Shown one piece after another: positions 1 through 46,300 of a DNA stretch of 64,000 nucleotides. Below the pieces are notes generated by a model. The model was not told the DNA's origin. It saw nothing but the letters and a program-made list of their open reading frames with translations, and ran no database searches. Each line of letters starts with the position of its first letter. Positions within the stretch are counted from its first letter, which is position 1. This stretch comes from Streptacidiphilus sp. P02-A3a (GTDB lineage Bacteria; Actinomycetota; Actinomycetes; Streptomycetales; Streptomycetaceae). The stretch is from positions 4,721,922 through 4,785,921 of the forward strand of contig NZ_CP048289.1 in NCBI RefSeq assembly GCF_014084105.1. Direction: 5' to 3'. The position numbers and the translations under genes are program-made.

Positions 1-1545
1 GGCGCCGTTCGGCCCGCCGGGCAGCCGGCCCTGGTCGAGGGCCAGGTGCTGCAGCGACCGCAGCGCTCCCCGGGCGTCCCCGTACAGCTGCTCCTCGCTG
101 CTGGCCAGCACAGCCTGACGCCACAGGTTCTCTGCCTGCTCGCCGTCACCGCGCACAGCGAAGGCGTACGCGGCCCGGGACGCCACCAGCGCGCGGGCTC
201 CATGAAAGCGCCCGGCCGCCGCATCACGGACCAACTGCTGCCAGGCCCGGTCGAGCTCATCGCGCGTGCCCTCAACAGACACCGCGGCGTCGGCGGCGGC
301 GCAGCGCAGCCGGGCCCGGATCACCGGATCGCGGAGGTCGGCGACAGCGGCGAGCGATCGAAGCCGCGCCAGCAGCCCGTCGGTGTCCGCGTCTGGCGAC
401 GACAGGACGGACCGCGCGGGAACCCGGTCGTACAGGCCGTCGACGATGGCCTGCTCGATCACCAGACAGCACAGCAACGCGGCATGCTCGTCGTCAGCGG
501 CAGCCAGGGTCTCGAGAGCTGGAACCGTCACGGCCAGTTGGCTTCCGTGCCCGGACCAGCCGTCGACTGCGGACAGGACCGTCGCCGTGGCCTGTGCCGA
601 ACCCCCGAGTCGGCCCGCAGTCTCCTCCAGGTCCTTGCGGGCGAAGACGGCCGCCGTGTGGTCGGCGCTGGAGATGGCCGCAAGCGTCAACGCGACCAGG
701 CGCGAGAACGCACCCGGCAGGTCACCGCCGGCCACAAGCACCCGTGCCTGGCGGCGGTACATCGTGGCCGAGTGCACGGGGAACCCGCCGGCCCGCAGCC
801 CCTCGGCGACAAGCCCGAGCAGGTGTGCCGCCTCCAGCGGGTCCCGCTCCTCGTTTGCGGCAGCGTCGGCCTGGAGCGCGTCCAAGCCGAGCACCTCGGC
901 CGGATCATCGACCAGGCCCAAGGCGGTCGGCGCGCTCTGGGCTGCCGGAGAGGGCGTGAACCCGCAAAACGCCGAAGCCCAGTGCGGGCCGAAGACCGCG
1001 AACACCAGATGGGGGGCATCGCGCAGGGCACGGCTGAGCGCTTCGGCGCCCCATGCCTCGATCACGAGGTCGCCTGCGTACTCGTTCTGCAACGTGGCCA
1101 GCGCATCCACGATGGCCGTGTCGCTGTCGGTCTGCGCCGACGTCGCCACCACCAGCCTGTACGGGTCGAACCGTCGAGGGTCTCCCTGAAAGTCCGGGCT
1201 CCTGACCGGGCCTGCGTAGGTCTCGACGGCATCCCGCAGCTGCTTGTCCGTGATCTGCTGGTAGCGCTTGACCTGGTAGAGCGAGCGCTGCTGTGATGGC
1301 TCCCGCTCGACGATGTCCAGGCCGTACTGCTTCTGCCCGCGCCGTCCGTAGAACTGCACACCCAGGTTGTGCCGCCGACTGACCACCTCGGCGACAACCC
1401 GCTCGAACACCTCGGGATCCAGGTCGTTGAACGGCAGCAGGCCAGGGTTCTGGATCGGCAGCGGCAGGGGGCCGGACTGCTTGTGGCGGGTCAACTGCGC
1501 CAGTGTCAGTTCCTGTGGCGGGTCGTCGCTGGTGTTCACGGACAT
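1..1545 (-). CDS. Mrr-like nuclease/helical repeat protein, 5' part (left-arm copy)
   Basis: This is the first 515 codons of the gene found complete at 43336-46674; the rest is cut off by the window edge. Within the shared part no difference was found. The start is the ATG at 1545, and the Mrr-like motif (G..D, then Q-V-K) falls in the first 95 residues. Whether this copy has the same 3' end as the other cannot be seen. Confidence 0.8.
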   Translation of the reverse strand, partial: MSVNTSDDPPQELTLAQLTRHKQSGPLPLPIQNPGLLPFNDLDPEVFERVVAEVVSRRHNLGVQFYGRRGQKQYGLDIVEREPSQQRSLYQVKRYQQITDKQLRDAVETYAGPVRSPDFQGDPRRFDPYRLVVATSAQTDSDTAIVDALATLQNEYAGDLVIEAWGAEALSRALRDAPHLVFAVFGPHWASAFCGFTPSPAAQSAPTALGLVDDPAEVLGLDALQADAAANEERDPLEAAHLLGLVAEGLRAGGFPVHSATMYRRQARVLVAGGDLPGAFSRLVALTLAAISSADHTAAVFARKDLEETAGRLGGSAQATATVLSAVDGWSGHGSQLAVTVPALETLAAADDEHAALLCCLVIEQAIVDGLYDRVPARSVLSSPDADTDGLLARLRSLAAVADLRDPVIRARLRCAAADAAVSVEGTRDELDRAWQQLVRDAAAGRFHGARALVASRAAYAFAVRGDGEQAENLWRQAVLASSEEQLYGDARGALRSLQHLALDQGRLPGGPNGA

Positions 1546-1720
1546 CCGCCCAGTATGGCGGCGTCCGGCGGCGACGCGCGCTGCGGGAGGACGGTCTAAT
1601 TCCCCGGCCGGGGCCGGGCCTGCAGGCGGCGTCCACCGGCCGGACCAGATCGCCCCGCACGTCGAAGGTCCGCCGAGAATTCTCCCGTTGCGGCGGAGCC
1701 CGACGTTCCTGTTGCGCGGG

Positions 1721-2827
1721 TCAGACGTCGTCTCGCCCCACCCTGATGCACTTGAGGCGTTCGAGGGTGATGTCCTCCTCGCCGCCGTCCTTGCGCATCG
1801 CATCGACGGCGGCCTGGCAGACGAGCTGAGACAGTTGCTTGAAGTAGCCGCCGGTCTGCCGGTGCAGGTCGGTCGCGTGGTTGGTCAGGCAATGCGCGCT
1901 GAGGTTGCGCAGGCACAGGTTGTCCTCGAAGCCTTTGAGGACGCTCAGCCAGGTGTTCTGGTCGGCTCCGTGATAGTGGATCGGATCGAGCCAGGTCACG
2001 GGCAGCAGGCTCGGCACGGGCTCCCTCGACGGCGGGAGCTTGGGCAGGCCGGCCTTGGCGCGCTGCTTCGCGACGCGTTCTCGGAGCCCGGCCTCAGCGC
2101 TCGTGAGATGGTCTGCCCTGACCCGGGCGGCCTGGACGATGCCCGCTGCTCCTGTGCCGCAGAAGATGACCGCGATTCCGTAGCGGCTGCGCAGGAAGTC
2201 GAAGTAGTGCAGCACCGGAGCGAGTTGGTCCGGGGTGGTGCGCTGGATGTCGTCGATCAGGATCATGCGGGTCTGGGAGCGGGCCAGGACGTGGGTGACG
2301 GGGTAGGTCAGGTCCGGCAGGCGTCTTTGGTCGAGCAGCGCCTGCTCGTCCTTGGGCGGAGGGTTGAGGCCCAGGAAGCAGGCGATCTCCCAGACCCAGG
2401 TGATTTTGCCGTCGGCATCGATCGGCGCGGTGATGTGGACCACTGGGATCCGGCCCCCCTCCTTCCCCGACACTCGGGCCTGGTATTCGCGTCCGATCGC
2501 CCGCAGGGTGAAGGACTTGCCGGTCCCGGGAGGGCCGTCGATCACCATGTCGAGGAAGCCCTCCGCTCGGAACTCGTTCGCGCGGAAGGCCAGTGACGCC
2601 TTCAGCAGGGCCTTGTCGAACTCGGGGTGGGAGACGAGCCGCAGGTGGCTGTTGTAGATCAGGCGGGCCTCGTAGGTGGTGAACGTGGCGAGCTCCGGCT
2701 TCGGAACCTTTTCGTATACGTACCGGTTCCAATCGTCGCGGGTGAACAGATTCCGCATCCGCAGCGGGGCACTCTGCGCGTGGGCCAGGACCTGTTCCTG
2801 GTCTGGGGTGAGGGTGGCTGCTTTCAC
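1721..2827 (-). CDS. tniB: TniB/TnsC-like transposition ATPase (left-arm copy)
   Basis: Identical mirror copy of 42054-43160; see that entry. The GTG start at 2827 is preferred over the upstream GTG because a GAGGA ribosome-binding site lies about 6 bases before it. Confidence 0.85.
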   Translation of the reverse strand: MKAATLTPDQEQVLAHAQSAPLRMRNLFTRDDWNRYVYEKVPKPELATFTTYEARLIYNSHLRLVSHPEFDKALLKASLAFRANEFRAEGFLDMVIDGPPGTGKSFTLRAIGREYQARVSGKEGGRIPVVHITAPIDADGKITWVWEIACFLGLNPPPKDEQALLDQRRLPDLTYPVTHVLARSQTRMILIDDIQRTTPDQLAPVLHYFDFLRSRYGIAVIFCGTGAAGIVQAARVRADHLTSAEAGLRERVAKQRAKAGLPKLPPSREPVPSLLPVTWLDPIHYHGADQNTWLSVLKGFEDNLCLRNLSAHCLTNHATDLHRQTGGYFKQLSQLVCQAAVDAMRKDGGEEDITLERLKCIRVGRDDV

Positions 2828-2870
2828 GTGTATTCCTCGGGGGTGGGAGCGCGGCAGGGACGGGAGTTGC

Positions 2871-5204
2871 TCAATGAGGTGGCGCACTGGCCCCGCCGTC
2901 GGCCTCCGGGGGATCCTGCGGGTGCGGCGCCATCGGTGCCAGCCCGGCGGAGGGTTCCGGGAACGCGGTGATCGTGTCCAGGTCGATGTCGGCCAGGCCC
3001 GCGTACGGGTCGGGTTCCGTCGCCGGGGCCGGGGCGTGGACCGGGCGGTCGGGAGCGGCAGGCGCGGAGGGCACCTCGCGCCCGCGGACGGGCAGGGACG
3101 GGAAAGCGGTGATCGTGTCCAGGTCGACCTGGGGCAGGTCCGCGTAGGGGTCGTCGGGGGTGGTGTCCTCGACGTTCAAGGGCCAGCCCTGGAACGGGAT
3201 GATCGGGCCACTGCGCCGCCGGGGGCCCTTGCGGCTGCGGGCGCGGCGTTCGCGCATCGCCACCGCCAGCGAGGCCTCGTCGACGGGCCGGCCCGCCTCC
3301 TGCTCCCGCAGTTGGCACTCCTGCCACATGTACTGTGTCCAGGGGTTGGTGAGCAGATACGCGTGGACGAACTGGCAGCGGATCCAGTGCCCGTCGCCGC
3401 GGTGGTCGTACAGCCAGGCCACCTCCGGCCGGTACGGGTTGTAGGTGGCCCGCCACTTGTCGCCGTGCTCGGCGAACCCGGACGGCAGCCCGGCCAGCGC
3501 CCGCAGCCGGCCCTTGGGGTCCTGGTAGGTGCGGTTCTCGATCTGGATGCCCTTGTCGGTGACCTTCACCCAGGCCGGGATGAGCAGATGCCGGCAGTCC
3601 TGGGGCGACAGCGGCCGCGGCCGGTAACCTGTCATCGCCGCCAGGTGCCCGTACATCTCGTTGGGGGACAGCTCCCGTCCTGGTAGGACGGGGCTGCGTA
3701 GCCCGTCGTGGGGAGTCTGCTGGTACTCCAGCGCGATCCACTCCTCGGCGCACTCCTGCAACTCGTTGATGGTGCGCAGCGGCTGCCGCTCTACACCGCG
3801 GCCGCGCACCTGGTGGCTGCGCCCGGTCCAGCCGGGGACGTACTGGCTGAAGCGGTCGGCCAGGGTGGGGAAGAAGCGTTCGCCGAGCGGCTTGTCGGTC
3901 GGTGTGTCCTTGCGGGCGTAGCGCAGGGTGATGCCCAGGAAGTCGCAGACGTCCTCGAAGTACCCGCTCACATACGGACTGCCCTGGTCCACGATGATGG
4001 TGCGCGGGTGGATGACCGGCCTGGCCGCGGTGGCCTCGGTGAACCGCGGATCGGCCGCCTGCAGTTGGGCGAACGGCAGGGCGGACATGGCGGCCGCCGT
4101 CAGCGGCGACCAGCCAGGCCGTGTCGGCATGGGGGAGAAGCACTGTGCCAGAGTCATGACCAGGTCGATGGACTTCGTCGACCGGCCCCCGACCCTGGGG
4201 CCGCCTGGGCCGGCCTCGCCCAGAATCGCGGGCACGATCATAAAACCCGCCATGGATCGGGTGGCGACGTCGATCAGCCCGGTCGCCTCCGCGGAGATCA
4301 CCTCGCCGTTGTCCCCGAGAGCCTTGATGTGCAGGGGAGTGGTGTCCATCTGCATCACCTCGCCCGGCTGCAGGGCGACGGACGGCGTGTACGGGGGCGC
4401 AGGCTTGCTCGCGTGGCTGGCGCGCTGCCGGGTGGTGCCGCGCACCCGGTCGGACAGCCCCAGCTCATGCATGCGCTTGTAGAAGATCGACTCCGGCAGT
4501 GCGAGGCGCTTGCGTTCCTCCGGGTCCTTCAGCTCCTCCTTGAAGCGCAAGGTGATCAGGTCCTGCACGGTCTCGTAGTAGCTGCCGATCGTGCCGCCGG
4601 ACTGCCGTGACCGGATCGCCACGGCCTCGTGCATGAGCGAGATCACCCGTGGATCGGTGCGCCCCCCGGGCCTGGGGGCCTTGCCTTTGCGGCCGTCCAG
4701 CAGCAGCACCAGCGGGTTCTCGTTCGCCCGCTTCCAGGCCAGCCGCTTGCTTTCCAGTGCCCGGGGCTTGATGTGGATGTCAGCCGCCGCGAGTTCCTCG
4801 GACTTCGCCTGGTAGCGCTGGGCCAGGGTGGTCGTGGCCGGGTCGTAGCCGTGTCGTGGGATCAGGCGGCCGGGGCGAATCCCGGTCTCGATCTCCTTCA
4901 TGTGCCCGTGCCACCACAGGGCCTGGTCGCGGTCCACCTTCGACGCCGCCTCCAGCACGATGTGCAGCGGCGGCAAACCGGAGGCCTGCTGCGGCTTACC
5001 TTCGCCGTCCAGGACGCAGAAGTCCTCGGACGCGACCAGGTCCCGGTACAAGCACGACACCGGCACACCTGCATCGCCTGCGGGCATCAAGCCGACCTCG
5101 GGGCCGGCGTACCGGATGACCTCGTAGCGGGTGCCCTGCCAGCGGATCTGGTCACCGAGCCGGACACGGTCGGACTCGAACCAGCCGGTCAGCTCCCGGG
5201 GCAT
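2871..5204 (-). CDS. tniA: TniA/TnsB-like DDE transposase (left-arm copy)
   Basis: Identical mirror copy of 39677-42010, a Mu-type integrase-core transposase; motifs are given there. Its start overlaps the end of the TnsA-like gene at 5189-5914 by 16 bases, as in the other arm. Confidence 0.88.
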   Translation of the reverse strand: MPRELTGWFESDRVRLGDQIRWQGTRYEVIRYAGPEVGLMPAGDAGVPVSCLYRDLVASEDFCVLDGEGKPQQASGLPPLHIVLEAASKVDRDQALWWHGHMKEIETGIRPGRLIPRHGYDPATTTLAQRYQAKSEELAAADIHIKPRALESKRLAWKRANENPLVLLLDGRKGKAPRPGGRTDPRVISLMHEAVAIRSRQSGGTIGSYYETVQDLITLRFKEELKDPEERKRLALPESIFYKRMHELGLSDRVRGTTRQRASHASKPAPPYTPSVALQPGEVMQMDTTPLHIKALGDNGEVISAEATGLIDVATRSMAGFMIVPAILGEAGPGGPRVGGRSTKSIDLVMTLAQCFSPMPTRPGWSPLTAAAMSALPFAQLQAADPRFTEATAARPVIHPRTIIVDQGSPYVSGYFEDVCDFLGITLRYARKDTPTDKPLGERFFPTLADRFSQYVPGWTGRSHQVRGRGVERQPLRTINELQECAEEWIALEYQQTPHDGLRSPVLPGRELSPNEMYGHLAAMTGYRPRPLSPQDCRHLLIPAWVKVTDKGIQIENRTYQDPKGRLRALAGLPSGFAEHGDKWRATYNPYRPEVAWLYDHRGDGHWIRCQFVHAYLLTNPWTQYMWQECQLREQEAGRPVDEASLAVAMRERRARSRKGPRRRSGPIIPFQGWPLNVEDTTPDDPYADLPQVDLDTITAFPSLPVRGREVPSAPAAPDRPVHAPAPATEPDPYAGLADIDLDTITAFPEPSAGLAPMAPHPQDPPEADGGASAPPH

Positions 5205-5914
5205 CGCTTCGCCCCTGCCGTCCACGCCAGTGCGGTCGGCAGCAGCGGCGCATCCCAGTCCATGAACAGACGCCGCTGCCACACCAGCCGCCACGCCAGG
5301 TCCAGCCCGGACAGCTCAGGCAACCCGCTGGCCGCGACACGGTCCAGCACCCGGCTCGGCTGGGCGAACGCCGCCAGCAGGGCGCGCTCCTCCTGCCGGG
5401 TCACCGGGAACGGCTGACGGAAACCGGCCGCCCACTCCAGGTTGGCGAGCCGAATCCCGCGCGGCACGGACCGTTCCTGCACCCTCCAGCCCGCCTGCTG
5501 CGCCACCTCGCCCACTACTGCCAGCCGCTCGCGCCACTGCGGGCCCGGTTTGTCCGGGCGCACCACCACGACCGTACGGCACCCGTCGGCGGTCCGTGCC
5601 ACGAAGTCGGGACGCCACCGCCGCCTGGCCTTTCCGACCTGCCAGTGCAGTTCGAGCGGCTCCCCGCTGAACCGCACCACGTCCGGGTCGAAATCCATCT
5701 CCAGGGCGACCCGGGTGCGCCGCAACGACCCGCAGACCACCGATGAACGGTTGGTCGAGGACCACCAGCGCGTGATGACGCCCTGCCGACCGTGGTAGGC
5801 CACCGGATCGGTGGGCGGACGCCGCTCCTCCAGCGGCACCATCGCCAGGTCGACGGGTGCCGAGCACGTCAGTTCGCCGGCCTGATCCAGGTGCCAGCCC
5901 ATCGCGTCCGTCAT
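5189..5914 (-). CDS. TnsA-like transposase endonuclease (left-arm copy)
   Basis: Identical mirror copy of 38967-39692. It lies between tniQ and tniA in the same operon-like order. Confidence 0.75.
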   Translation of the reverse strand: MTDAMGWHLDQAGELTCSAPVDLAMVPLEERRPPTDPVAYHGRQGVITRWWSSTNRSSVVCGSLRRTRVALEMDFDPDVVRFSGEPLELHWQVGKARRRWRPDFVARTADGCRTVVVVRPDKPGPQWRERLAVVGEVAQQAGWRVQERSVPRGIRLANLEWAAGFRQPFPVTRQEERALLAAFAQPSRVLDRVAASGLPELSGLDLAWRLVWQRRLFMDWDAPLLPTALAWTAGAKRCPGS

Positions 5915-5929
5915 GAGCCTCCTCTCTCT

Positions 5930-5956
5930 CGATGGTCACCACAGTGGAGACCATCG
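5930..5956. promoter_or_regulatory. 27-bp hyphenated palindrome before TnsA-like gene (left copy)
   Basis: Mirror of 38925-38951; see that entry. Confidence 0.4.
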
Positions 5957-6061
5957 GGACGCCTCCGCGGCCCTTCGGCCGCCTGTTCCCTCGAAGGTGT
6001 GAACGATCCCTGTCCATGCGTCCCTTGACCTGCCACGACAGCACCAGGGAGTGCGCACGGC

Positions 6062-7093
6062 TCACAGATCGCCCGGTGCGGTGCCCAACTGCCAAGGCAG
6101 GCAAGAACGCTGCTCCAGGGACCCGGATGAGGCAGCGACCCGGGTGTGGCCCGGCGGCAGCGTGAAACGGCGGTCCCGCAGCGTCGGATGCATCACCGGC
6201 ACGGGCGGCCGGTGATGCCGGGTCAGCCACTCCAGGACCGGTGCCGTCACGAACTGCTCGTCCAGCCCCCAGGCCGTCCCCATCGACTCCACCTCGTACA
6301 GCAGCAGGGAACGCGCCTTGGACCCCCGGGGCACCTTCCGCTCGTAGCGCATCATGGCCTCGGTCAGGTCGACGGCCTCGGGATAGATCACTAGCGGAGC
6401 CACCCGCAGGTCGCGCCGCGCTAGCCCGGCAGCCTCGGCCCGCAGCTCCCAGCGCTCCACCCCCGGCACACGCGTCCACCAGTACACCGCGACGTGGAAC
6501 GCGTCTGCGAACAGCCCCGGACCCGCCTCGGGAAAACGCCGCTGCAACCTCAGCCGCTCCCGGTGTGCGCGCACCACCGCGGGCAGGCCGTCCAGCCGCA
6601 CCCGCGCCGGATCGTCGCTGCGGGAGGAGTCCGTCCAGCGCCCGTGGCGCAGGCACACCCGCCACCGGTCCGGCCACAGCAGCCAGACCGGCTCGTCGAC
6701 CATGTGGCGGGCGGCGCACAGATCGCAGCCGCGGACCACGTACGCCTCCCCGGCAGGAGGCTCCCACGGCCATTCCCAGCGCGCGGTGCCCTCGTCGCCG
6801 CGCAGCAGGTACCGATCCGCCAGCCCCGACAGACAGCGCTGCAACTCGTGTGGCTGGCGGTCCGTCAGCACGGCCAGATATTGCAGGCCCGCCTGGTTCA
6901 CATACATCTCGGTGAAGCGTGGGTCGACCGCTTTGCGGCCGTGGCCCACCCGGTCCAAGAACGCGTCCAGTTCCAGGCCGTTGCAGTGAGCCAGTCGATT
7001 CACGAACGAACCCGTCGACTCGTCCGCCAGAGGCCGGACCTGCAAAGGGAGTCGGTGGGTCGGCCCCCATAGCTCCAGCCAATCCGTGAGCAT
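6062..7093 (-). CDS. tniQ: TniQ family protein (left-arm copy)
   Basis: Identical mirror copy of 37788-38819. It is divergent from the helicase gene at 7281, with 187 bases between the two starts. Confidence 0.85.
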   Translation of the reverse strand: MLTDWLELWGPTHRLPLQVRPLADESTGSFVNRLAHCNGLELDAFLDRVGHGRKAVDPRFTEMYVNQAGLQYLAVLTDRQPHELQRCLSGLADRYLLRGDEGTARWEWPWEPPAGEAYVVRGCDLCAARHMVDEPVWLLWPDRWRVCLRHGRWTDSSRSDDPARVRLDGLPAVVRAHRERLRLQRRFPEAGPGLFADAFHVAVYWWTRVPGVERWELRAEAAGLARRDLRVAPLVIYPEAVDLTEAMMRYERKVPRGSKARSLLLYEVESMGTAWGLDEQFVTAPVLEWLTRHHRPPVPVMHPTLRDRRFTLPPGHTRVAASSGSLEQRSCLPWQLGTAPGDL

Positions 7094-7280: not shown

Positions 7281-9626
7281 GTGGCCGCGACGACTATTGA
7301 CCATGATCTGCTTACGGAACTGCGTGCCCACCAGCGCCTCGCAGTGGATATGTGCATCAACGCGTTCGCCACCGGCGCGCCACGGATCAATCTGCATGCC
7401 GCCTGCGGAACCGGCAAGACCCTGATCGGACTCAACGTCGCCCAGCACGTCGCCCCCCGCGGCCGCGTGCTTACCGTCGTGCCCAGGTTGCAACTGCTCG
7501 AGCAGAGCATCGCCGCCTGGCACGGGGACGGACGCCAAGGCGCTTTCCTGGCCGTGTGCTCGCAGGGCCCGCAGGACCCCGCCCTGGTCGGCGTGATGAG
7601 AAGGCTCGAGAACATCGGGAAGCTCGCCGCTCATATCGACGCCGCCGGAGACGGGCCGGTGAACGTGTTCATCACCTACCACTCCCTGTACAAGCTCGCG
7701 CAGGGGCACGCGGACGGCCTCCTGCCCGCCTGGGACCTGATCATCGCCGACGAGGCCCATCGCACCGCCGGCTCCCTCGACAAGGACTGGGCCGTCGTCC
7801 ACGACAACGACGCCATCCCCTCGCGCCGCCGCCTCTACATGACCGCAACTCCGAAGAACGTTCACGACCCCGAGCGCAACGACGACGTCACCTGCGAAGT
7901 GGCCTCCATGGACGACTTGAGCCTCTACGGGCCCGTCGTCTACCGGATCTCGCTTGCCGAATCCATCGACCAGGGTCTGCTCGCCGACTACCGCCTGGTC
8001 GTCATGGAGATCCACGACGACCAACTGCGCAAGATCTTGGGCCGCGACTGCGACATCCACCACGACTCCGAAGGTACACGCGTAGCAGCAGCCCAAGTCG
8101 CCCTGTCCTACGCGATGCGCAAGTTCAACCTCACACGCACTCTGTCCTTCCACTCGCGCATCAAGTCAGCGGAACTCTTCGCCGAGACCCTGCACGAGAC
8201 CGCCGCGCTGATGCCGGACGGCGGCCCCGGGTCCCTGTGGACTGGTACTGTCTCGTCTCTTCAGGACCGCTTCGACCGACTCGAGACCTTCGCTCAGTTC
8301 GCCGGCCACGCTCCGGACAACCCCCGGGCCCAGCGCCGGGTGCTCACCAACTCACGCATGTGCCTGGAGGGCTTCGACCTGCCCGCGATCGACAGCATCA
8401 TGTTCGCGGACCCCAAATCCAGCAGTATCGACATCGCACAAGGCGTCGGACGGGCACTGCGCCAACCGCCCGGCACCGGCAAGATCGCCACGATCATCGT
8501 TCCGATCTACCTCGCCCCCGGAGAAGACCCGGACAAGGGCATGCGGGGCAGTCCCTACTGGCTGCTCTACCAGGTCATGATCGCACTGAAGGTCTACGAC
8601 GAGCACGTCGTTCGCCGGGTCGAGCGCCTCGAACTCGACGAACTGGTCAGACGCTTCCCCCCGCCCGCCGCCCGCCCGGAGCGCGCCGACGAGATCATCC
8701 CCGTACTCGCCCTCAATGCCCTCGACCCGCACAACAGCGTCTGGCACCTCGGGCTGGGCAGTGCCGAGCGCTACCACGCTCGCCACGGGAACCTGGACGT
8801 ACCCAGCCGCTACCTCGGCCCCGATCGTTTCTACCTGGGCTGGTGGCTCGGCCACCAGCGCTCGCTGCGCATGAACGGGCTCCTGCTCAACGAGCGCATC
8901 GACGCCCTTGACGCCTACGGCATGCGCTGGGAACACCCGCGCCGCAGCATCGAGTTCCACCTGCAGACCGCCCGCGAGTACACCACCTGCCATGGACACC
9001 TTGCCCCCCTGGCGGACGAGACCTTCCAAGGCACCCGCATCGGCCGCTGGGTATCGCGGTGGCGAAAGGAAGCCCACGACAGGACCCTGCCCCACCCCTA
9101 CATACGTGCCCTGGACGAGATCAACCCCTGGTGGAACGCGCCCTGGCCCAAGCAATGGCAGCACACCTACGTCCGAGCCCTCGCGGCCACCCGCACCGGT
9201 ACGCTTGGCTTTCCCGGCCTGCGTACCACCAGTGACGACCCGTTGACCGACTGGCTTGACAGCCAGATCGACCTCATGCCGGGGCTGCACCCCGACCAGA
9301 GGAACCTCCTGGGCGCCCTGCCCTTCGACCACCCACTGGCTCTTCTGCTGCGGCGCCCCCGCAGCCCCGCAGAGCGCGTCTTCACCGAAGGCCTCAGAGC
9401 AGCACGTATCTTCCGGCGTGAACACCAGCACCTCGACGTCCCCTACTACTACGTCACCGAACAGGCCGGGCACCGATTCCGCTTGGGCGAGTGGATCTCG
9501 CGGCAGCGCCGCGACGCCGCCCAGCTCACCCGCAGCCAACTCGACGCCCTCGAATCACTGCACATGCGGTGGATCCCGAGGCAAAGCCCGCCGTGGGATC
9601 CCGGCGACGCGTGGACAGCCGGGTGA
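7281..9626 (+). CDS. DEAH helicase with helicase-associated repeats, telomere type
   Basis: A 781-residue superfamily 2 helicase. The N-terminal half has Walker A (CGTGKT, about residues 42-47), the DEAH box (157-160) and motif III (TATPK). The C-terminal part, about 480-750, holds several tandem helicase-associated (HA) repeats of the W.LG...RY...HG-L-VP type. Helicases with this layout (TtrA-like and relatives) are typical of Streptomyces chromosome and linear-plasmid ends, where a role in end transfer or replication has been proposed. The GTG at 7281 is chosen because GGGAGA lies 6 bases upstream. The gene is divergent from tniQ and followed by a strong hairpin at 9673. An identical copy is at 35255-37600. 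The helicase call is firm; the telomere role is inferred. Confidence 0.9.
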   Translation: MAATTIDHDLLTELRAHQRLAVDMCINAFATGAPRINLHAACGTGKTLIGLNVAQHVAPRGRVLTVVPRLQLLEQSIAAWHGDGRQGAFLAVCSQGPQDPALVGVMRRLENIGKLAAHIDAAGDGPVNVFITYHSLYKLAQGHADGLLPAWDLIIADEAHRTAGSLDKDWAVVHDNDAIPSRRRLYMTATPKNVHDPERNDDVTCEVASMDDLSLYGPVVYRISLAESIDQGLLADYRLVVMEIHDDQLRKILGRDCDIHHDSEGTRVAAAQVALSYAMRKFNLTRTLSFHSRIKSAELFAETLHETAALMPDGGPGSLWTGTVSSLQDRFDRLETFAQFAGHAPDNPRAQRRVLTNSRMCLEGFDLPAIDSIMFADPKSSSIDIAQGVGRALRQPPGTGKIATIIVPIYLAPGEDPDKGMRGSPYWLLYQVMIALKVYDEHVVRRVERLELDELVRRFPPPAARPERADEIIPVLALNALDPHNSVWHLGLGSAERYHARHGNLDVPSRYLGPDRFYLGWWLGHQRSLRMNGLLLNERIDALDAYGMRWEHPRRSIEFHLQTAREYTTCHGHLAPLADETFQGTRIGRWVSRWRKEAHDRTLPHPYIRALDEINPWWNAPWPKQWQHTYVRALAATRTGTLGFPGLRTTSDDPLTDWLDSQIDLMPGLHPDQRNLLGALPFDHPLALLLRRPRSPAERVFTEGLRAARIFRREHQHLDVPYYYVTEQAGHRFRLGEWISRQRRDAAQLTRSQLDALESLHMRWIPRQSPPWDPGDAWTAG

Positions 9627-11159: not shown

Positions 11160-11195
11160 CCGCATGCCAGATCCGTCCCACCAAGGAGGTGCACC

Positions 11196-13503: not shown

Positions 13504-13512
13504 GACACAACC

Positions 13513-18348: not shown

Positions 18349-18520
18349 TCACGGTAGTGTCGGATGGGTCGCGCTCCCGAACCTGTCGGCCAGTTCGTTG
18401 ACTTCTCCGTTGTCCTGCTTACCGCCGTGCCATTTGGCTGAGACCTCCTCGAGGTGGGCGAGTTCCTCGGTGCTGACCAGGACGGCGGCCTGTGTGCCAC
18501 TGCGCGATGGAGCACCGGGG
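18349..18520 (-). pseudogene. Phd/YefM-like antitoxin fragment
   Basis: A stop-free frame reading AAVLVSTEELAHLEEVSAKW, then an ELADRFGSATHPTLP end. The AVLVS.EEL..LEE segment resembles the region of Phd/YefM-type antitoxins that follows the DNA-binding part. No start codon or N-terminal half is present and no toxin lies next to it. It is probably a remnant left downstream of the UvrD-like gene; the family call is tentative. Confidence 0.3.
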
Positions 18521-18558
18521 TGGGGGCGGCACGGACGAGGCTTGGCTCCTGGTGCAGC

Positions 18559-22318: not shown

Positions 22319-22401
22319 GGCGCGGTCCTCCTCTCCAAGGGGAGTTCGTACGGTGCCGGTCGCCGGTGTACGGCGGTCGGCGGGGGAGCGGCGCACACCC
22401 T

Positions 22402-26403: not shown

Positions 26404-26441
26404 GCTGCACCAGGAGCCAAGCCTCGTCCGTGCCGCCCCCA

Positions 26442-31428: not shown

Positions 31429-31437
31429 GGTTGTGTC

Positions 31438-37787: not shown

Positions 37788-38819
37788 ATGCTCACGGATT
37801 GGCTGGAGCTATGGGGGCCGACCCACCGACTCCCTTTGCAGGTCCGGCCTCTGGCGGACGAGTCGACGGGTTCGTTCGTGAATCGACTGGCTCACTGCAA
37901 CGGCCTGGAACTGGACGCGTTCTTGGACCGGGTGGGCCACGGCCGCAAAGCGGTCGACCCACGCTTCACCGAGATGTATGTGAACCAGGCGGGCCTGCAA
38001 TATCTGGCCGTGCTGACGGACCGCCAGCCACACGAGTTGCAGCGCTGTCTGTCGGGGCTGGCGGATCGGTACCTGCTGCGCGGCGACGAGGGCACCGCGC
38101 GCTGGGAATGGCCGTGGGAGCCTCCTGCCGGGGAGGCGTACGTGGTCCGCGGCTGCGATCTGTGCGCCGCCCGCCACATGGTCGACGAGCCGGTCTGGCT
38201 GCTGTGGCCGGACCGGTGGCGGGTGTGCCTGCGCCACGGGCGCTGGACGGACTCCTCCCGCAGCGACGATCCGGCGCGGGTGCGGCTGGACGGCCTGCCC
38301 GCGGTGGTGCGCGCACACCGGGAGCGGCTGAGGTTGCAGCGGCGTTTTCCCGAGGCGGGTCCGGGGCTGTTCGCAGACGCGTTCCACGTCGCGGTGTACT
38401 GGTGGACGCGTGTGCCGGGGGTGGAGCGCTGGGAGCTGCGGGCCGAGGCTGCCGGGCTAGCGCGGCGCGACCTGCGGGTGGCTCCGCTAGTGATCTATCC
38501 CGAGGCCGTCGACCTGACCGAGGCCATGATGCGCTACGAGCGGAAGGTGCCCCGGGGGTCCAAGGCGCGTTCCCTGCTGCTGTACGAGGTGGAGTCGATG
38601 GGGACGGCCTGGGGGCTGGACGAGCAGTTCGTGACGGCACCGGTCCTGGAGTGGCTGACCCGGCATCACCGGCCGCCCGTGCCGGTGATGCATCCGACGC
38701 TGCGGGACCGCCGTTTCACGCTGCCGCCGGGCCACACCCGGGTCGCTGCCTCATCCGGGTCCCTGGAGCAGCGTTCTTGCCTGCCTTGGCAGTTGGGCAC
38801 CGCACCGGGCGATCTGTGA
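37788..38819 (+). CDS. tniQ: TniQ family target-selection protein
   Basis: TniQ/TnsD proteins couple target recognition to the TnsC ATPase in Tn7-like and Tn5053-like elements. The 343-residue product opens with the family's N-terminal signature (LPLQVRPLADESTGSFVNRL, residues 15-34). A zinc finger follows, with Cys123, Cys126, Cys147 and His150 (GCDLC, then VCLRHGRW). The C-terminal half is less conserved and probably carries the element-specific target or partner contacts. It is the first gene of a run ending with tniB, with 147 bases before the TnsA-like gene. An identical copy is at 6062-7093. Confidence 0.87.
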   Translation: MLTDWLELWGPTHRLPLQVRPLADESTGSFVNRLAHCNGLELDAFLDRVGHGRKAVDPRFTEMYVNQAGLQYLAVLTDRQPHELQRCLSGLADRYLLRGDEGTARWEWPWEPPAGEAYVVRGCDLCAARHMVDEPVWLLWPDRWRVCLRHGRWTDSSRSDDPARVRLDGLPAVVRAHRERLRLQRRFPEAGPGLFADAFHVAVYWWTRVPGVERWELRAEAAGLARRDLRVAPLVIYPEAVDLTEAMMRYERKVPRGSKARSLLLYEVESMGTAWGLDEQFVTAPVLEWLTRHHRPPVPVMHPTLRDRRFTLPPGHTRVAASSGSLEQRSCLPWQLGTAPGDL

Positions 38820-38924
38820 GCCGTGCGCACTCCCTGGTGCTGTCGTGGCAGGTCAAGGGACGCATGGACAGGGATCGTTCACACCTTCGAGGGAACAGGC
38901 GGCCGAAGGGCCGCGGAGGCGTCC

Positions 38925-38951
38925 CGATGGTCTCCACTGTGGTGACCATCG
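38925..38951. promoter_or_regulatory. 27-bp hyphenated palindrome before TnsA-like gene
   Basis: CGATGGTCTCCAC and GTGGTGACCATCG flank a central T; the arms match in 12 of 13 positions. It sits directly upstream of the GAGAGAGGAGG ribosome-binding site and 15 bases before the ATG at 38967. It could be an operator for autoregulation or an RNA hairpin limiting TnsA-like translation. Confidence 0.45.
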
Positions 38952-38966
38952 AGAGAGAGGAGGCTC

Positions 38967-39692
38967 ATGACGGACGCGATGGGCTGGCACCTGGATCAGG
39001 CCGGCGAACTGACGTGCTCGGCACCCGTCGACCTGGCGATGGTGCCGCTGGAGGAGCGGCGTCCGCCCACCGATCCGGTGGCCTACCACGGTCGGCAGGG
39101 CGTCATCACGCGCTGGTGGTCCTCGACCAACCGTTCATCGGTGGTCTGCGGGTCGTTGCGGCGCACCCGGGTCGCCCTGGAGATGGATTTCGACCCGGAC
39201 GTGGTGCGGTTCAGCGGGGAGCCGCTCGAACTGCACTGGCAGGTCGGAAAGGCCAGGCGGCGGTGGCGTCCCGACTTCGTGGCACGGACCGCCGACGGGT
39301 GCCGTACGGTCGTGGTGGTGCGCCCGGACAAACCGGGCCCGCAGTGGCGCGAGCGGCTGGCAGTAGTGGGCGAGGTGGCGCAGCAGGCGGGCTGGAGGGT
39401 GCAGGAACGGTCCGTGCCGCGCGGGATTCGGCTCGCCAACCTGGAGTGGGCGGCCGGTTTCCGTCAGCCGTTCCCGGTGACCCGGCAGGAGGAGCGCGCC
39501 CTGCTGGCGGCGTTCGCCCAGCCGAGCCGGGTGCTGGACCGTGTCGCGGCCAGCGGGTTGCCTGAGCTGTCCGGGCTGGACCTGGCGTGGCGGCTGGTGT
39601 GGCAGCGGCGTCTGTTCATGGACTGGGATGCGCCGCTGCTGCCGACCGCACTGGCGTGGACGGCAGGGGCGAAGCGATGCCCCGGGAGCTGA
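38967..39692 (+). CDS. TnsA-like transposase endonuclease
   Basis: In Tn7-like elements TnsA cuts the 5' ends of the transposon while TnsB cuts and joins the 3' ends, giving cut-and-paste movement. The 241-residue product has a PD-(D/E)XK pattern in the right spacing: Glu72 (VALEMDFD), Asp103 (RWRPDFVAR) and a strand TVVVVRPDK ending in Lys122. The last motif lacks the usual Glu or Gln two residues before Lys, so activity should be tested rather than assumed. The C-terminal third (VTRQEERALLAAF, then LAWRLVWQRRLF) is helical and likely contacts TniB or TniA. It overlaps tniA by 16 bases. An identical copy is at 5189-5914. Confidence 0.75.
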   Translation: MTDAMGWHLDQAGELTCSAPVDLAMVPLEERRPPTDPVAYHGRQGVITRWWSSTNRSSVVCGSLRRTRVALEMDFDPDVVRFSGEPLELHWQVGKARRRWRPDFVARTADGCRTVVVVRPDKPGPQWRERLAVVGEVAQQAGWRVQERSVPRGIRLANLEWAAGFRQPFPVTRQEERALLAAFAQPSRVLDRVAASGLPELSGLDLAWRLVWQRRLFMDWDAPLLPTALAWTAGAKRCPGS

Positions 39693-42010
39693 CCGGCTGG
39701 TTCGAGTCCGACCGTGTCCGGCTCGGTGACCAGATCCGCTGGCAGGGCACCCGCTACGAGGTCATCCGGTACGCCGGCCCCGAGGTCGGCTTGATGCCCG
39801 CAGGCGATGCAGGTGTGCCGGTGTCGTGCTTGTACCGGGACCTGGTCGCGTCCGAGGACTTCTGCGTCCTGGACGGCGAAGGTAAGCCGCAGCAGGCCTC
39901 CGGTTTGCCGCCGCTGCACATCGTGCTGGAGGCGGCGTCGAAGGTGGACCGCGACCAGGCCCTGTGGTGGCACGGGCACATGAAGGAGATCGAGACCGGG
40001 ATTCGCCCCGGCCGCCTGATCCCACGACACGGCTACGACCCGGCCACGACCACCCTGGCCCAGCGCTACCAGGCGAAGTCCGAGGAACTCGCGGCGGCTG
40101 ACATCCACATCAAGCCCCGGGCACTGGAAAGCAAGCGGCTGGCCTGGAAGCGGGCGAACGAGAACCCGCTGGTGCTGCTGCTGGACGGCCGCAAAGGCAA
40201 GGCCCCCAGGCCCGGGGGGCGCACCGATCCACGGGTGATCTCGCTCATGCACGAGGCCGTGGCGATCCGGTCACGGCAGTCCGGCGGCACGATCGGCAGC
40301 TACTACGAGACCGTGCAGGACCTGATCACCTTGCGCTTCAAGGAGGAGCTGAAGGACCCGGAGGAACGCAAGCGCCTCGCACTGCCGGAGTCGATCTTCT
40401 ACAAGCGCATGCATGAGCTGGGGCTGTCCGACCGGGTGCGCGGCACCACCCGGCAGCGCGCCAGCCACGCGAGCAAGCCTGCGCCCCCGTACACGCCGTC
40501 CGTCGCCCTGCAGCCGGGCGAGGTGATGCAGATGGACACCACTCCCCTGCACATCAAGGCTCTCGGGGACAACGGCGAGGTGATCTCCGCGGAGGCGACC
40601 GGGCTGATCGACGTCGCCACCCGATCCATGGCGGGTTTTATGATCGTGCCCGCGATTCTGGGCGAGGCCGGCCCAGGCGGCCCCAGGGTCGGGGGCCGGT
40701 CGACGAAGTCCATCGACCTGGTCATGACTCTGGCACAGTGCTTCTCCCCCATGCCGACACGGCCTGGCTGGTCGCCGCTGACGGCGGCCGCCATGTCCGC
40801 CCTGCCGTTCGCCCAACTGCAGGCGGCCGATCCGCGGTTCACCGAGGCCACCGCGGCCAGGCCGGTCATCCACCCGCGCACCATCATCGTGGACCAGGGC
40901 AGTCCGTATGTGAGCGGGTACTTCGAGGACGTCTGCGACTTCCTGGGCATCACCCTGCGCTACGCCCGCAAGGACACACCGACCGACAAGCCGCTCGGCG
41001 AACGCTTCTTCCCCACCCTGGCCGACCGCTTCAGCCAGTACGTCCCCGGCTGGACCGGGCGCAGCCACCAGGTGCGCGGCCGCGGTGTAGAGCGGCAGCC
41101 GCTGCGCACCATCAACGAGTTGCAGGAGTGCGCCGAGGAGTGGATCGCGCTGGAGTACCAGCAGACTCCCCACGACGGGCTACGCAGCCCCGTCCTACCA
41201 GGACGGGAGCTGTCCCCCAACGAGATGTACGGGCACCTGGCGGCGATGACAGGTTACCGGCCGCGGCCGCTGTCGCCCCAGGACTGCCGGCATCTGCTCA
41301 TCCCGGCCTGGGTGAAGGTCACCGACAAGGGCATCCAGATCGAGAACCGCACCTACCAGGACCCCAAGGGCCGGCTGCGGGCGCTGGCCGGGCTGCCGTC
41401 CGGGTTCGCCGAGCACGGCGACAAGTGGCGGGCCACCTACAACCCGTACCGGCCGGAGGTGGCCTGGCTGTACGACCACCGCGGCGACGGGCACTGGATC
41501 CGCTGCCAGTTCGTCCACGCGTATCTGCTCACCAACCCCTGGACACAGTACATGTGGCAGGAGTGCCAACTGCGGGAGCAGGAGGCGGGCCGGCCCGTCG
41601 ACGAGGCCTCGCTGGCGGTGGCGATGCGCGAACGCCGCGCCCGCAGCCGCAAGGGCCCCCGGCGGCGCAGTGGCCCGATCATCCCGTTCCAGGGCTGGCC
41701 CTTGAACGTCGAGGACACCACCCCCGACGACCCCTACGCGGACCTGCCCCAGGTCGACCTGGACACGATCACCGCTTTCCCGTCCCTGCCCGTCCGCGGG
41801 CGCGAGGTGCCCTCCGCGCCTGCCGCTCCCGACCGCCCGGTCCACGCCCCGGCCCCGGCGACGGAACCCGACCCGTACGCGGGCCTGGCCGACATCGACC
41901 TGGACACGATCACCGCGTTCCCGGAACCCTCCGCCGGGCTGGCACCGATGGCGCCGCACCCGCAGGATCCCCCGGAGGCCGACGGCGGGGCCAGTGCGCC
42001 ACCTCATTGA
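39677..42010 (+). CDS. tniA: TniA/TnsB-like DDE transposase
   Basis: A 777-residue Mu/TnsB-type transposase with an rve-type catalytic core. The DDE triad is Asp287 (MQMDTTPLHI), Asp406 (IIVDQGSPYVSGYF) and Glu442 (PLGERFFPT), a D(35)E spacing. N-terminal helical DNA-binding segments precede the core, and a Mu C-terminal beta-barrel-like part (residues ~570-640) follows. The tail is Pro/Ala-rich and contains a duplicated DPYA-L-DLDTITAFP motif (near residues 685 and 733), which may be the docking peptide for TniB. The start is the ATG at 39677 inside the upstream gene. An identical copy is at 2871-5204. Confidence 0.9.
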   Translation: MPRELTGWFESDRVRLGDQIRWQGTRYEVIRYAGPEVGLMPAGDAGVPVSCLYRDLVASEDFCVLDGEGKPQQASGLPPLHIVLEAASKVDRDQALWWHGHMKEIETGIRPGRLIPRHGYDPATTTLAQRYQAKSEELAAADIHIKPRALESKRLAWKRANENPLVLLLDGRKGKAPRPGGRTDPRVISLMHEAVAIRSRQSGGTIGSYYETVQDLITLRFKEELKDPEERKRLALPESIFYKRMHELGLSDRVRGTTRQRASHASKPAPPYTPSVALQPGEVMQMDTTPLHIKALGDNGEVISAEATGLIDVATRSMAGFMIVPAILGEAGPGGPRVGGRSTKSIDLVMTLAQCFSPMPTRPGWSPLTAAAMSALPFAQLQAADPRFTEATAARPVIHPRTIIVDQGSPYVSGYFEDVCDFLGITLRYARKDTPTDKPLGERFFPTLADRFSQYVPGWTGRSHQVRGRGVERQPLRTINELQECAEEWIALEYQQTPHDGLRSPVLPGRELSPNEMYGHLAAMTGYRPRPLSPQDCRHLLIPAWVKVTDKGIQIENRTYQDPKGRLRALAGLPSGFAEHGDKWRATYNPYRPEVAWLYDHRGDGHWIRCQFVHAYLLTNPWTQYMWQECQLREQEAGRPVDEASLAVAMRERRARSRKGPRRRSGPIIPFQGWPLNVEDTTPDDPYADLPQVDLDTITAFPSLPVRGREVPSAPAAPDRPVHAPAPATEPDPYAGLADIDLDTITAFPEPSAGLAPMAPHPQDPPEADGGASAPPH

Positions 42011-42053
42011 GCAACTCCCGTCCCTGCCGCGCTCCCACCCCCGAGGAATACAC

Positions 42054-43160
42054 GTGAAAGCAGCCACCCTCACCCCAGACCAGGAACAGGTCCTGGCCCA
42101 CGCGCAGAGTGCCCCGCTGCGGATGCGGAATCTGTTCACCCGCGACGATTGGAACCGGTACGTATACGAAAAGGTTCCGAAGCCGGAGCTCGCCACGTTC
42201 ACCACCTACGAGGCCCGCCTGATCTACAACAGCCACCTGCGGCTCGTCTCCCACCCCGAGTTCGACAAGGCCCTGCTGAAGGCGTCACTGGCCTTCCGCG
42301 CGAACGAGTTCCGAGCGGAGGGCTTCCTCGACATGGTGATCGACGGCCCTCCCGGGACCGGCAAGTCCTTCACCCTGCGGGCGATCGGACGCGAATACCA
42401 GGCCCGAGTGTCGGGGAAGGAGGGGGGCCGGATCCCAGTGGTCCACATCACCGCGCCGATCGATGCCGACGGCAAAATCACCTGGGTCTGGGAGATCGCC
42501 TGCTTCCTGGGCCTCAACCCTCCGCCCAAGGACGAGCAGGCGCTGCTCGACCAAAGACGCCTGCCGGACCTGACCTACCCCGTCACCCACGTCCTGGCCC
42601 GCTCCCAGACCCGCATGATCCTGATCGACGACATCCAGCGCACCACCCCGGACCAACTCGCTCCGGTGCTGCACTACTTCGACTTCCTGCGCAGCCGCTA
42701 CGGAATCGCGGTCATCTTCTGCGGCACAGGAGCAGCGGGCATCGTCCAGGCCGCCCGGGTCAGGGCAGACCATCTCACGAGCGCTGAGGCCGGGCTCCGA
42801 GAACGCGTCGCGAAGCAGCGCGCCAAGGCCGGCCTGCCCAAGCTCCCGCCGTCGAGGGAGCCCGTGCCGAGCCTGCTGCCCGTGACCTGGCTCGATCCGA
42901 TCCACTATCACGGAGCCGACCAGAACACCTGGCTGAGCGTCCTCAAAGGCTTCGAGGACAACCTGTGCCTGCGCAACCTCAGCGCGCATTGCCTGACCAA
43001 CCACGCGACCGACCTGCACCGGCAGACCGGCGGCTACTTCAAGCAACTGTCTCAGCTCGTCTGCCAGGCCGCCGTCGATGCGATGCGCAAGGACGGCGGC
43101 GAGGAGGACATCACCCTCGAACGCCTCAAGTGCATCAGGGTGGGGCGAGACGACGTCTGA
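42054..43160 (+). CDS. tniB: TniB/TnsC-like AAA+ transposition ATPase
   Basis: A 368-residue AAA+ ATPase that, in related elements, forms filaments on target DNA and delivers it to the transposase. Walker A is GPPGTGKS (residues 98-105) and Walker B is MILIDDIQ (188-195); a sensor-like FCGTGAAG strand follows, and the C-terminal lid is helical. GTG 42054 is preferred because GAGGA lies 6 bases upstream; a GTG at 41994 would overlap tniA. It closes the tniQ-tnsA-tniA-tniB set. An identical copy is at 1721-2827. Confidence 0.88.
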   Translation: MKAATLTPDQEQVLAHAQSAPLRMRNLFTRDDWNRYVYEKVPKPELATFTTYEARLIYNSHLRLVSHPEFDKALLKASLAFRANEFRAEGFLDMVIDGPPGTGKSFTLRAIGREYQARVSGKEGGRIPVVHITAPIDADGKITWVWEIACFLGLNPPPKDEQALLDQRRLPDLTYPVTHVLARSQTRMILIDDIQRTTPDQLAPVLHYFDFLRSRYGIAVIFCGTGAAGIVQAARVRADHLTSAEAGLRERVAKQRAKAGLPKLPPSREPVPSLLPVTWLDPIHYHGADQNTWLSVLKGFEDNLCLRNLSAHCLTNHATDLHRQTGGYFKQLSQLVCQAAVDAMRKDGGEEDITLERLKCIRVGRDDV

Positions 43161-43335
43161 CCCGCGCAACAGGAACGTCGGGCTCCGCCGCAACGGGAGA
43201 ATTCTCGGCGGACCTTCGACGTGCGGGGCGATCTGGTCCGGCCGGTGGACGCCGCCTGCAGGCCCGGCCCCGGCCGGGGAATTAGACCGTCCTCCCGCAG
43301 CGCGCGTCGCCGCCGGACGCCGCCATACTGGGCGG

Positions 43336-46300
43336 ATGTCCGTGAACACCAGCGACGACCCGCCACAGGAACTGACACTGGCGCAGTTGACCCGCCACAA
43401 GCAGTCCGGCCCCCTGCCGCTGCCGATCCAGAACCCTGGCCTGCTGCCGTTCAACGACCTGGATCCCGAGGTGTTCGAGCGGGTTGTCGCCGAGGTGGTC
43501 AGTCGGCGGCACAACCTGGGTGTGCAGTTCTACGGACGGCGCGGGCAGAAGCAGTACGGCCTGGACATCGTCGAGCGGGAGCCATCACAGCAGCGCTCGC
43601 TCTACCAGGTCAAGCGCTACCAGCAGATCACGGACAAGCAGCTGCGGGATGCCGTCGAGACCTACGCAGGCCCGGTCAGGAGCCCGGACTTTCAGGGAGA
43701 CCCTCGACGGTTCGACCCGTACAGGCTGGTGGTGGCGACGTCGGCGCAGACCGACAGCGACACGGCCATCGTGGATGCGCTGGCCACGTTGCAGAACGAG
43801 TACGCAGGCGACCTCGTGATCGAGGCATGGGGCGCCGAAGCGCTCAGCCGTGCCCTGCGCGATGCCCCCCATCTGGTGTTCGCGGTCTTCGGCCCGCACT
43901 GGGCTTCGGCGTTTTGCGGGTTCACGCCCTCTCCGGCAGCCCAGAGCGCGCCGACCGCCTTGGGCCTGGTCGATGATCCGGCCGAGGTGCTCGGCTTGGA
44001 CGCGCTCCAGGCCGACGCTGCCGCAAACGAGGAGCGGGACCCGCTGGAGGCGGCACACCTGCTCGGGCTTGTCGCCGAGGGGCTGCGGGCCGGCGGGTTC
44101 CCCGTGCACTCGGCCACGATGTACCGCCGCCAGGCACGGGTGCTTGTGGCCGGCGGTGACCTGCCGGGTGCGTTCTCGCGCCTGGTCGCGTTGACGCTTG
44201 CGGCCATCTCCAGCGCCGACCACACGGCGGCCGTCTTCGCCCGCAAGGACCTGGAGGAGACTGCGGGCCGACTCGGGGGTTCGGCACAGGCCACGGCGAC
44301 GGTCCTGTCCGCAGTCGACGGCTGGTCCGGGCACGGAAGCCAACTGGCCGTGACGGTTCCAGCTCTCGAGACCCTGGCTGCCGCTGACGACGAGCATGCC
44401 GCGTTGCTGTGCTGTCTGGTGATCGAGCAGGCCATCGTCGACGGCCTGTACGACCGGGTTCCCGCGCGGTCCGTCCTGTCGTCGCCAGACGCGGACACCG
44501 ACGGGCTGCTGGCGCGGCTTCGATCGCTCGCCGCTGTCGCCGACCTCCGCGATCCGGTGATCCGGGCCCGGCTGCGCTGCGCCGCCGCCGACGCCGCGGT
44601 GTCTGTTGAGGGCACGCGCGATGAGCTCGACCGGGCCTGGCAGCAGTTGGTCCGTGATGCGGCGGCCGGGCGCTTTCATGGAGCCCGCGCGCTGGTGGCG
44701 TCCCGGGCCGCGTACGCCTTCGCTGTGCGCGGTGACGGCGAGCAGGCAGAGAACCTGTGGCGTCAGGCTGTGCTGGCCAGCAGCGAGGAGCAGCTGTACG
44801 GGGACGCCCGGGGAGCGCTGCGGTCGCTGCAGCACCTGGCCCTCGACCAGGGCCGGCTGCCCGGCGGGCCGAACGGCGCCACCGGCGGGCTGCCCGATCG
44901 CAAGCGGCTGCTGGCGTCGGCTGTTGACCCGGCCCTGTCCGCGCTGGAGGCCGCCCACCACGGTCGCCTGCCCGACGCGCTCGGGGATGTCCGCCGGTAC
45001 CTGTGGGAGGCACGACTGTCCGGCGACCGATGCGAAGAAGCCGGTGTGCAAGCCCTGCTCGGCGATGTGCTCAGCGCCGGAGGGCACCACTTCGCGGCCG
45101 CGCACTACTACCTGGAGGCAGGAGTCGCGGAGCGTGCCGCCGCGGCGGCACGCGCGATGACGCTTCCGCTCGATGTCACCGACTGGCTCAACTCCCCCGT
45201 CCGGTACCGCCAGGCCGCAGCCATCGAGGTCTTGAAGGCGCAGGCAGCCTCCCTGCCCGACACCATGGTCCCCGAGGCGGTACAGCGGCTCCTAGCGCTT
45301 GCAACCACTGTGTGGGCGGCGCCCCGTGCAGATCCCGCCCCCGAGCGCCAGGCCCTCAACGCGGTAGCTGCGTTCGGGCGACGCATCCCCGACAGTGCCG
45401 TGGACACCATCCTCGATCTGGCTCAGCCGGCCACCGTAACCGCCCCGCACGCCCCCTGGCCAGTGGTCACCTCCGTCATCGCGAAGCTGCTCGTCCAGAC
45501 CTATTGGGCGGTGGAACCTCGACGCCACGAAATCGCCGAGGTCCTGGGCACCCTGTTGGGCCTGCCCCAGCCGCCCCACGGCCTGTGGCCCCTGATCCTC
45601 GCGATGCCTGGGCAGGCACGTGAGCCCCTGCTGGCCATGGTGTGCTCCCGCGCCGAGGCCGGCGACCGAAATGCCCTGCAGGTCCTCGCGCGCTGGCGCG
45701 AGGCGACGCCCGCCGTCCAGACAGCCGCCCGACAGGCATGCGCCGCACTGCTGCGCCGCCCGGTGGACGTCCCGCGCCACGTGATGACCGTGGACACCCA
45801 GGCCACCGACACCGTCGACCACTTGAACGCGCTGCTCGAGGCCACCGTCCTCGTCGACGTCTGCCCCGACGACCTGAGCGCGGACCGGACTCAGCCCGCC
45901 GGCGGTGTGGTGCTGCAGATGCAGCTGAATCCCGCGCCCGGTTCCACCGGCATTCAGGACACCGAACAGTCAGCCCCTCATGACAACCCCGACCAGGCAT
46001 CCGGGCCCGACCGTGCGGCACTGCTCGCAGCGGGGCCACTGGTCGGCCTCACCGAGGCCGTCGCACGGCACCTGCTGGCCATGGCTGAGGACACTCACGA
46101 CACGGCGCCGTCCCGCATCCAGGCCATCGACGCACTGCGCGCTCTGCTCTTCCGCCTGCCCGAGCCGGTCCTGCGCGCCATCACCGACCGAATGCTGATC
46201 GTCAGCCGCGACCCGGGGCGCGCAGAGATCGACCAGTTGATGATGGAGGCCACCGGCGCGTTCAGCCGCGCCACCATGAATCTGGGCATCACCCACCTGC

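Follow-up and report, generated by a model that had tools for sequence, protein, structure and literature searches.

A 560-kb palindrome in the Streptacidiphilus sp. P02-A3a genome record is probably a false head-to-head join of the terminal inverted repeats of a linear chromosome

The closest described counterparts of the locus considered here are the terminal inverted repeats (TIRs) of linear Streptomyces chromosomes. Excerpts of a survey of 742 Streptomyces chromosomes report TIRs in 587 of them, with lengths from less than 100 bp to almost 3 Mb, a median of 50.6 kb, and a third quartile of 147 kb, and also mention large TIR-related assembly artifacts (PMC11260486). In Streptomyces ambofaciens, chromosome arms with tap and tpg remained linear, whereas arm replacements in which these genes were lost led to circularization, as far as the excerpted account goes (PMC5869714), and a partial text on Streptomyces clavuligerus describes linearity as requiring plasmid pSCL4 with its tap-tpg genes (PMC8743545). 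Here, we analyze a stretch of 64,000 nucleotides from Streptacidiphilus sp. P02-A3a (the window), located at positions 4,721,922 to 4,785,921 of the single 9,330,052-base contig NZ_CP048289.1, which contains the center of a giant palindrome with tap and tpg in both of its arms. The window lies in the middle of this contig, and the suggestion in a first-pass annotation that it might start at a contig end does not hold.

By their length, identity, and flanks, the two arms look like Streptomyces-type TIRs. They are near-identical inverted sequences with tap and tpg near the tip, and their length of 280 kb, although long, is within the known range, since the survey, in the parts available, reaches almost 3 Mb (PMC11260486). 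They differ from described TIRs in being joined head to head within a contig and in having tips without a recognizable telomere; that they are chromosome ends we infer from their gene content and their position opposite dnaA. Circularized Streptomyces chromosomes resemble the present record in consisting of one closed chromosome with its ends joined opposite oriC, but in the excerpted accounts those chromosomes had lost their ends and been joined asymmetrically, whereas the present join shows one-base symmetry and leaves tap and tpg in place. Fold-back artifacts of long-read sequencing offer a third comparison, as they too are inverted duplications with almost no spacer. Such reads make up about 0.55 to 0.6% of Oxford Nanopore Technologies genomic reads and virtually none of PacBio HiFi reads in one survey (PMC12870357). 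However, a single read cannot make two 280-kb arms with different flanks and could have supplied the join only.

Alignment of the window against itself by BLAST gave a single minus-strand alignment, pairing positions 1 to 44880 with 44880 to 1 over 45,055 columns at 99.14% identity. A self-aligned palindrome scores every difference twice, and arm against arm the window contains 194 differing columns. The center is base 22479, an unpaired A in the context CAGGGG-A-CCCCTG (coordinate sum, 44958), which marks a junction that is either artificial or real. The left arm (positions 1 to 22478, plus strand, from the self-alignment) is the outermost 22.5 kb of the left 280-kb copy, and the right arm (positions 22480 to 44880, minus strand) is the portion that pairs with the left edge of the window, the repeat going on outside it to 280 kb. 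Its length excludes a chance origin of the palindrome. The first-pass annotation had correctly described a palindrome centered here but had given its size as 44.9 kb, which is a lower bound because the window edge cuts the palindrome. Adding the neighboring stretches extended the inverted repeat to 403 kb with the edge of the sequence still reached, and of ten 1-kb probes the one at 250 kb found its mirror match, whereas none of the nine placed at least 300 kb from the center did. In a comparison of 604 kb, the left arm reached 280,259 bases from the center and the right arm 280,112 bases, at 99.76% identity, so that an end near 44.9 kb is ruled out; the whole inverted repeat spans contig positions 4,464,141 to 5,024,512, or about 560 kb. 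Beyond 280 kb, the left and right arms run into different flanking DNA.

The first bases of the contig are the start codon of dnaA, and dnaN, recF, gyrB, and gyrA come next (identified from open reading frames [ORFs] and family matches); the contig therefore seems to have been closed into a circle and then rotated. Measured from dnaA, the center of the palindrome is on the far side of the contig, at distances of 4.74 and 4.59 Mb, which is where the ends of a linear chromosome would be expected. The explanation that we favor, with a probability of roughly 0.8 as judged from the sequence, is that the contig carries real 280-kb TIRs of a linear chromosome, falsely joined head to head, with the telomeres missing. 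The chromosome would be linear and of the Streptomyces type, with TIRs of about 280 kb and with its linearity kept by Tap and Tpg. Both ends would have stopped at one base, with either a single repeat unitig as the source of both tips or fold-back reads that reversed at that point, and the contig would then have been declared circular and rotated to dnaA, producing the head-to-head join. The true telomeres, together with any DNA past the promoter element described below, would be missing from the assembly. The inferred parts of this explanation are thus that the chromosome is linear in the cell, how the join arose, and that the telomeres are missing; most likely, the TIRs are ordinary ones that do exist, whereas a continuous molecule with the 560-kb palindrome does not.

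Because the outer flanks differ, the folding back of a single arm is insufficient and a true pair of TIRs is needed; a single real arm folded back on itself was rejected on these grounds. The first-pass annotation had proposed an assembly or fold-back product. The join is indeed most simply an assembly product, but fold-back is only one possible cause of it, as plain circularization followed by rotation to dnaA needs no chimeric read. Its further, conditional advice to remove positions 1 to 22478 would be wrong for a repeat of about 560 kb whose arms enter different flanks, and the sensible correction is to cut the contig at the center and treat it as linear.

The gene content of the arms is consistent with this explanation. 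Both arms contain tap, encoding a telomere-associated protein, and tpg, encoding a telomere-protecting terminal protein, although in frame-broken form. The left tap copy occupies positions 11437 to 13503 on the plus strand in separate frames (mirror, 31438 to 33461, with stops) and scored 697 bits, counted with its neighbors, against the Tap model NF047542 (cutoff, 600). The main open piece of tpg lies at positions 13504 to 13938 on the plus strand (mirror, 31004 to 31437), and the open pieces scored 207 bits in the left arm and 112 bits in the right arm against the Tpg model NF047541 (cutoff, 90). The reported presence of tap, tpg, and helicases in the arms was thus borne out, the helicases being of the UvrD type and of the ResIII type with HA domains, and with this content the arms do resemble the terminal parts of a linear replicon. 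Since both arms keep tap and tpg, which go with linearity in the excerpted accounts of S. ambofaciens and S. clavuligerus, these genes support a linear chromosome. Among 25 plasmid records listed of 375 matching, Tap was located 2.9 to 5.9 kb from the record end in 14 and at least 31 kb from it in 11.

The junction itself falls in a truncated element resembling a divergent promoter or operator, with its right copy at positions 22480 to 22572 (plus strand) and its left copy at 22386 to 22478; the element is internal in other replicons. The start of the tip, over 36 to 101 bases, matched seven Streptomyces plasmids internally, one of them circular, at E values from 2e-12 to 0.6, five of the matches being at 6e-7 or better and two being weak. 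These seven were the ones analyzed among 22 plasmid records that matched at an E value of up to 1; a Streptomyces cathayae plasmid among the 15 set aside (E value, 0.6) also has a helicase gene and a gene of the 318-amino-acid type nearby. A helix-turn-helix (HTH) gene was found by tblastn in all seven plasmids, including two whose records are unannotated, and in the five annotated records it starts 22 to 24 bases past the tip-equivalent end of the match.

A profile built from the seven plasmid elements was run on 160 loci and the window, and an element was called at an E value below 1e-9. Apart from the seven seeds and the window, 39 loci held the element, all of them among the best 80 of 177 loci collected by helicase similarity; the remaining 41 of these 80 held no element at that threshold. 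The presence of the helicase in all 39 element loci is a result of this selection. All 39 match from profile position 1 or 2, so that their sequence runs past the point at which the window folds back, whereas the two tips of the window begin at profile positions 10 and 11. The HTH gene was found by tblastn in every one of the 39 loci, starting 19 to 24 bases past the tip-equivalent base in 38 and 6.9 kb away in one, and a gene for a DUF6083 protein was found in 27. Since the element runs on in all 39 loci, the palindrome turns inside a divergent promoter and not at a recognized replicon end.

Neither the HTH gene nor DUF6083 was found at an E value of 0.001 in the 604 kb around the center. DUF6083 also had no match in the whole assembly of this organism, a search for which no positive-control genome was run, although the same protein finds 27 of the 39 loci by tblastn. 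When the 321-base tip was compared with 13 other genomes of the genus, 7 matched at an E value of 0.001 or better, all from query base 85 or later. The window DNA had no match in 17 contig-end stretches from five genomes of the genus (G001 and G010 to G013), and in the 6 contigs of the genus for which both ends were compared, the ends never matched each other.

The conserved element is about 100 bases long, has paired inverted repeats, and lies between an HTH gene and, in the plasmids, the gene of the 318-amino-acid type, near a UvrD helicase gene; we saw it in the 39 loci (among L104 to L169) and the seven plasmids (L083 to L089). Judged by these occurrences, it has the look of a regulatory module that is widespread on plasmids or mobile elements.

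Many sequences listed as complete have no recognizable telomeres (PMC8743542), and the tips of the present arms seem to be such a case. Short hairpins, with a stem of at least 6 bp and a loop of 3 or 4 bases, were absent from the first 400 bases of either tip, whereas four of five control linear-plasmid ends had 3 to 5 of them within the first 200 bases and the fifth had none. When the left arm was scanned together with its flank in 3,023 windows of 200 bases, 2,320 proved to be free of such hairpins, and in this respect the tip looks like ordinary arm DNA. Folding energy was less informative. The tip had a z score of −1.89, against −5.10, +1.06, −1.42, −1.78, and −6.69 for the five control ends, so that two controls fold far more strongly but the tip is no worse than the ends at −1.42 and −1.78 and better than the end at +1.06. 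Because energy separates the ends poorly, the argument about telomeres rests on the hairpin count and the internal homologs. A 20-base archetypal telomere core occurred at 5 places with 2 or 3 mismatches, compared with 2 places for its control; none of these was at the center, and one was 216 kb from it. The tips are not recognizable telomeres, and the true telomeres seem to be missing. The description of the palindrome as two telomeric ends joined head to head has to be revised accordingly, as the break falls within a divergent promoter that other replicons carry internally.

Arm against arm, the two copies differ in 677 columns, made up of 34 substitutions and 643 gap columns. The differences fall into eight patches, at 0 to 12, 37 to 44, 91 to 106, 110 to 125, 139 to 148, 209 to 212, 215 to 221, and 264 to 280 kb from the center, separated by difference-free blocks of up to 60 kb. 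Many indels are close to repeated bases: 489 of the 643 are no more than 3 bases away from at least two identical bases in a row (expected, 292; standard deviation, 11), and for runs of at least three the number of indels that touch one is 247 (expected, 72; standard deviation, 8), the expectations being derived from 200 random shifts within 1.5 kb. The position of the indels near runs, their patchiness, and the breakage of different genes in each arm point to consensus error within a repeat and not to divergence, and we therefore read the arm differences as uneven long-read consensus. Arms that had diverged as separate copies were rejected, as true divergence would show as substitutions. The 12 kb on each side of the center are of poor sequence quality; this would be weak evidence of a drop in coverage at a physical end, because the patch at 215 to 221 kb is just as dense.

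Several points weigh against a false join. The end points of the arms agree to within a single nucleotide, which a careless join of two separately assembled ends would not produce; such symmetry requires a unitig common to both ends, a fold-back read, or a real event. If there were DNA past the tip, it should normally have let reads extend the contig. The failure to find HTH and DUF6083 genes fits a real loss equally well, and one of the five control plasmid ends also lacks hairpins, with folding energy being no discriminator. The best-surviving alternative is a real circular chromosome, in which an end broke within the promoter element, lost its telomere, and was healed when it folded back or fused with its sister, after which recombination with the other TIR gave a true 560-kb palindrome, tolerated by the cell. 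Such a history, for instance with the broken end being copied after folding back, would account for a junction that is symmetric to one base at a nontelomeric site and for the absence of the expected neighbors beyond the tip, and end deletions with circularization, as well as end fusion, are known in Streptomyces from the excerpted account (PMC5869714). Nevertheless, we consider it unlikely. It would leave tap and tpg retained in both arms, and a perfect palindrome takes two steps to form. A perfect palindrome should also be unstable; the first-pass annotation had used this argument, which has no force for two TIRs that are not joined. The poor quality of the 12 kb on each side of the center is a further point against this history, although another patch is equally bad. 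Finally, the circularized strains in the excerpted accounts had end deletions and joins at different places in the two arms (PMC5869714, PMC8743545), whereas here both arms stop at the same base.

It is far less probable that the tips are true physical ends with an undescribed type of telomere, derived from a captured promoter element, and that only the join is artificial. The stopping of both arms at the same base would suit such an arrangement, and the first 80 or so bases can fold as a long imperfect hairpin (8 of 200 shuffles were as good as the observed z score). In addition, six classes of streptomycete telomere have been studied and further classes may await discovery (PMC8743542). However, the absence of short hairpins, compared with 3 to 5 in four of the five controls, and the internal position of the element in all 39 other loci argue against it. 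Covalently closed hairpin ends, sequenced straight through, would be expected to yield an exact palindrome with a minimal center but are very improbable, given that the Tap and Tpg machinery of protein-capped ends is present.

If the false join that we favor is correct, the topology given in the genome record is probably wrong, and the correct form should be a linear chromosome bearing TIRs of 280 kb. Inferences about gene order, the replication terminus, or copy number drawn across contig position 4,744,400 would then be false, and a routine check for self-palindromes would be worthwhile whenever a contig from a linear actinomycete chromosome begins at dnaA. Should the join be real, it would provide a rare test of bacterial tolerance of a giant palindrome. 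The value of the finding is the correction of the record; the surrounding biology is otherwise ordinary.

From the center outward, each arm has the same gene order. An ORF of 318 amino acids, which resembles the gene beside the promoter element in Streptomyces plasmids, begins 83 bases from the center (22562 to 23518, plus strand; mirror, 21444 to 22396) and is followed at 1.5 kb by the UvrD-type helicase of 842 amino acids (24015 to 26543, plus strand; mirror, 18419 to 20948, with an open part at 18559 to 20841) and by an NB-ARC/TPR protein. Farther out are tpg and tap (at about 8.5 to 11 kb), a 781-amino-acid ResIII-type helicase with three HA domains (at 12.8 kb; 7281 to 9626, plus strand; mirror, 35255 to 37600, minus strand), and a Tn7-like cluster encoding an AAA/TniB-like ATPase, an rve-type transposase, a TnsA-like protein, and TniQ (1721 to 7093, minus strand; mirror, 37788 to 43160). 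Several of these genes are open in one arm only: by the ORF filter, the NB-ARC gene is open in the left arm only, and the 318-amino-acid ORF and the 842-amino-acid UvrD frame are open in the right arm only.

Each arm also has a second Tap-like gene, with a frame of 895 amino acids, 67 to 69 kb from the center (contig positions 4675000 to 4677360, plus strand, and 4811381 to 4813741, minus strand), which may be what remains of an earlier end or may represent an integrated linear plasmid. A single 7.67-Mb contig from the same genus (G012) likewise starts with an apparent dnaA, as judged by eye, and has Tap in its middle at 4.06 Mb. No palindrome was present in the 160 kb around this Tap, so that the contig neither repeats nor contradicts the present case, and its topology may deserve a check.

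Among other features, a tandem repeat with a 7-base unit, extending over about 114 bases, occurs at window positions 17705 to 17818 and 27142 to 27254, the copy in the right arm being one base shorter. Positions 51104 to 55432 of the window encode a protein of 1,442 amino acids with an AAA/NACHT-like center, WD40-like repeats, and a caspase-like N terminus of the EACC1-associated type, the latter scoring under the cutoff of that model. At the outer limit of the right arm, an ORF for a DDE-type transposase (PF13358) begins about 0.3 kb beyond the TIR edge, in the right flank at 280.4 to 284.5 kb from the center. A stretch of 1,443 bases with inverted ends, at 283.0 kb in the same flank, is identical to one located 90.9 kb from the center inside the arm, and mobile elements may have been the site at which the TIR edge arose.

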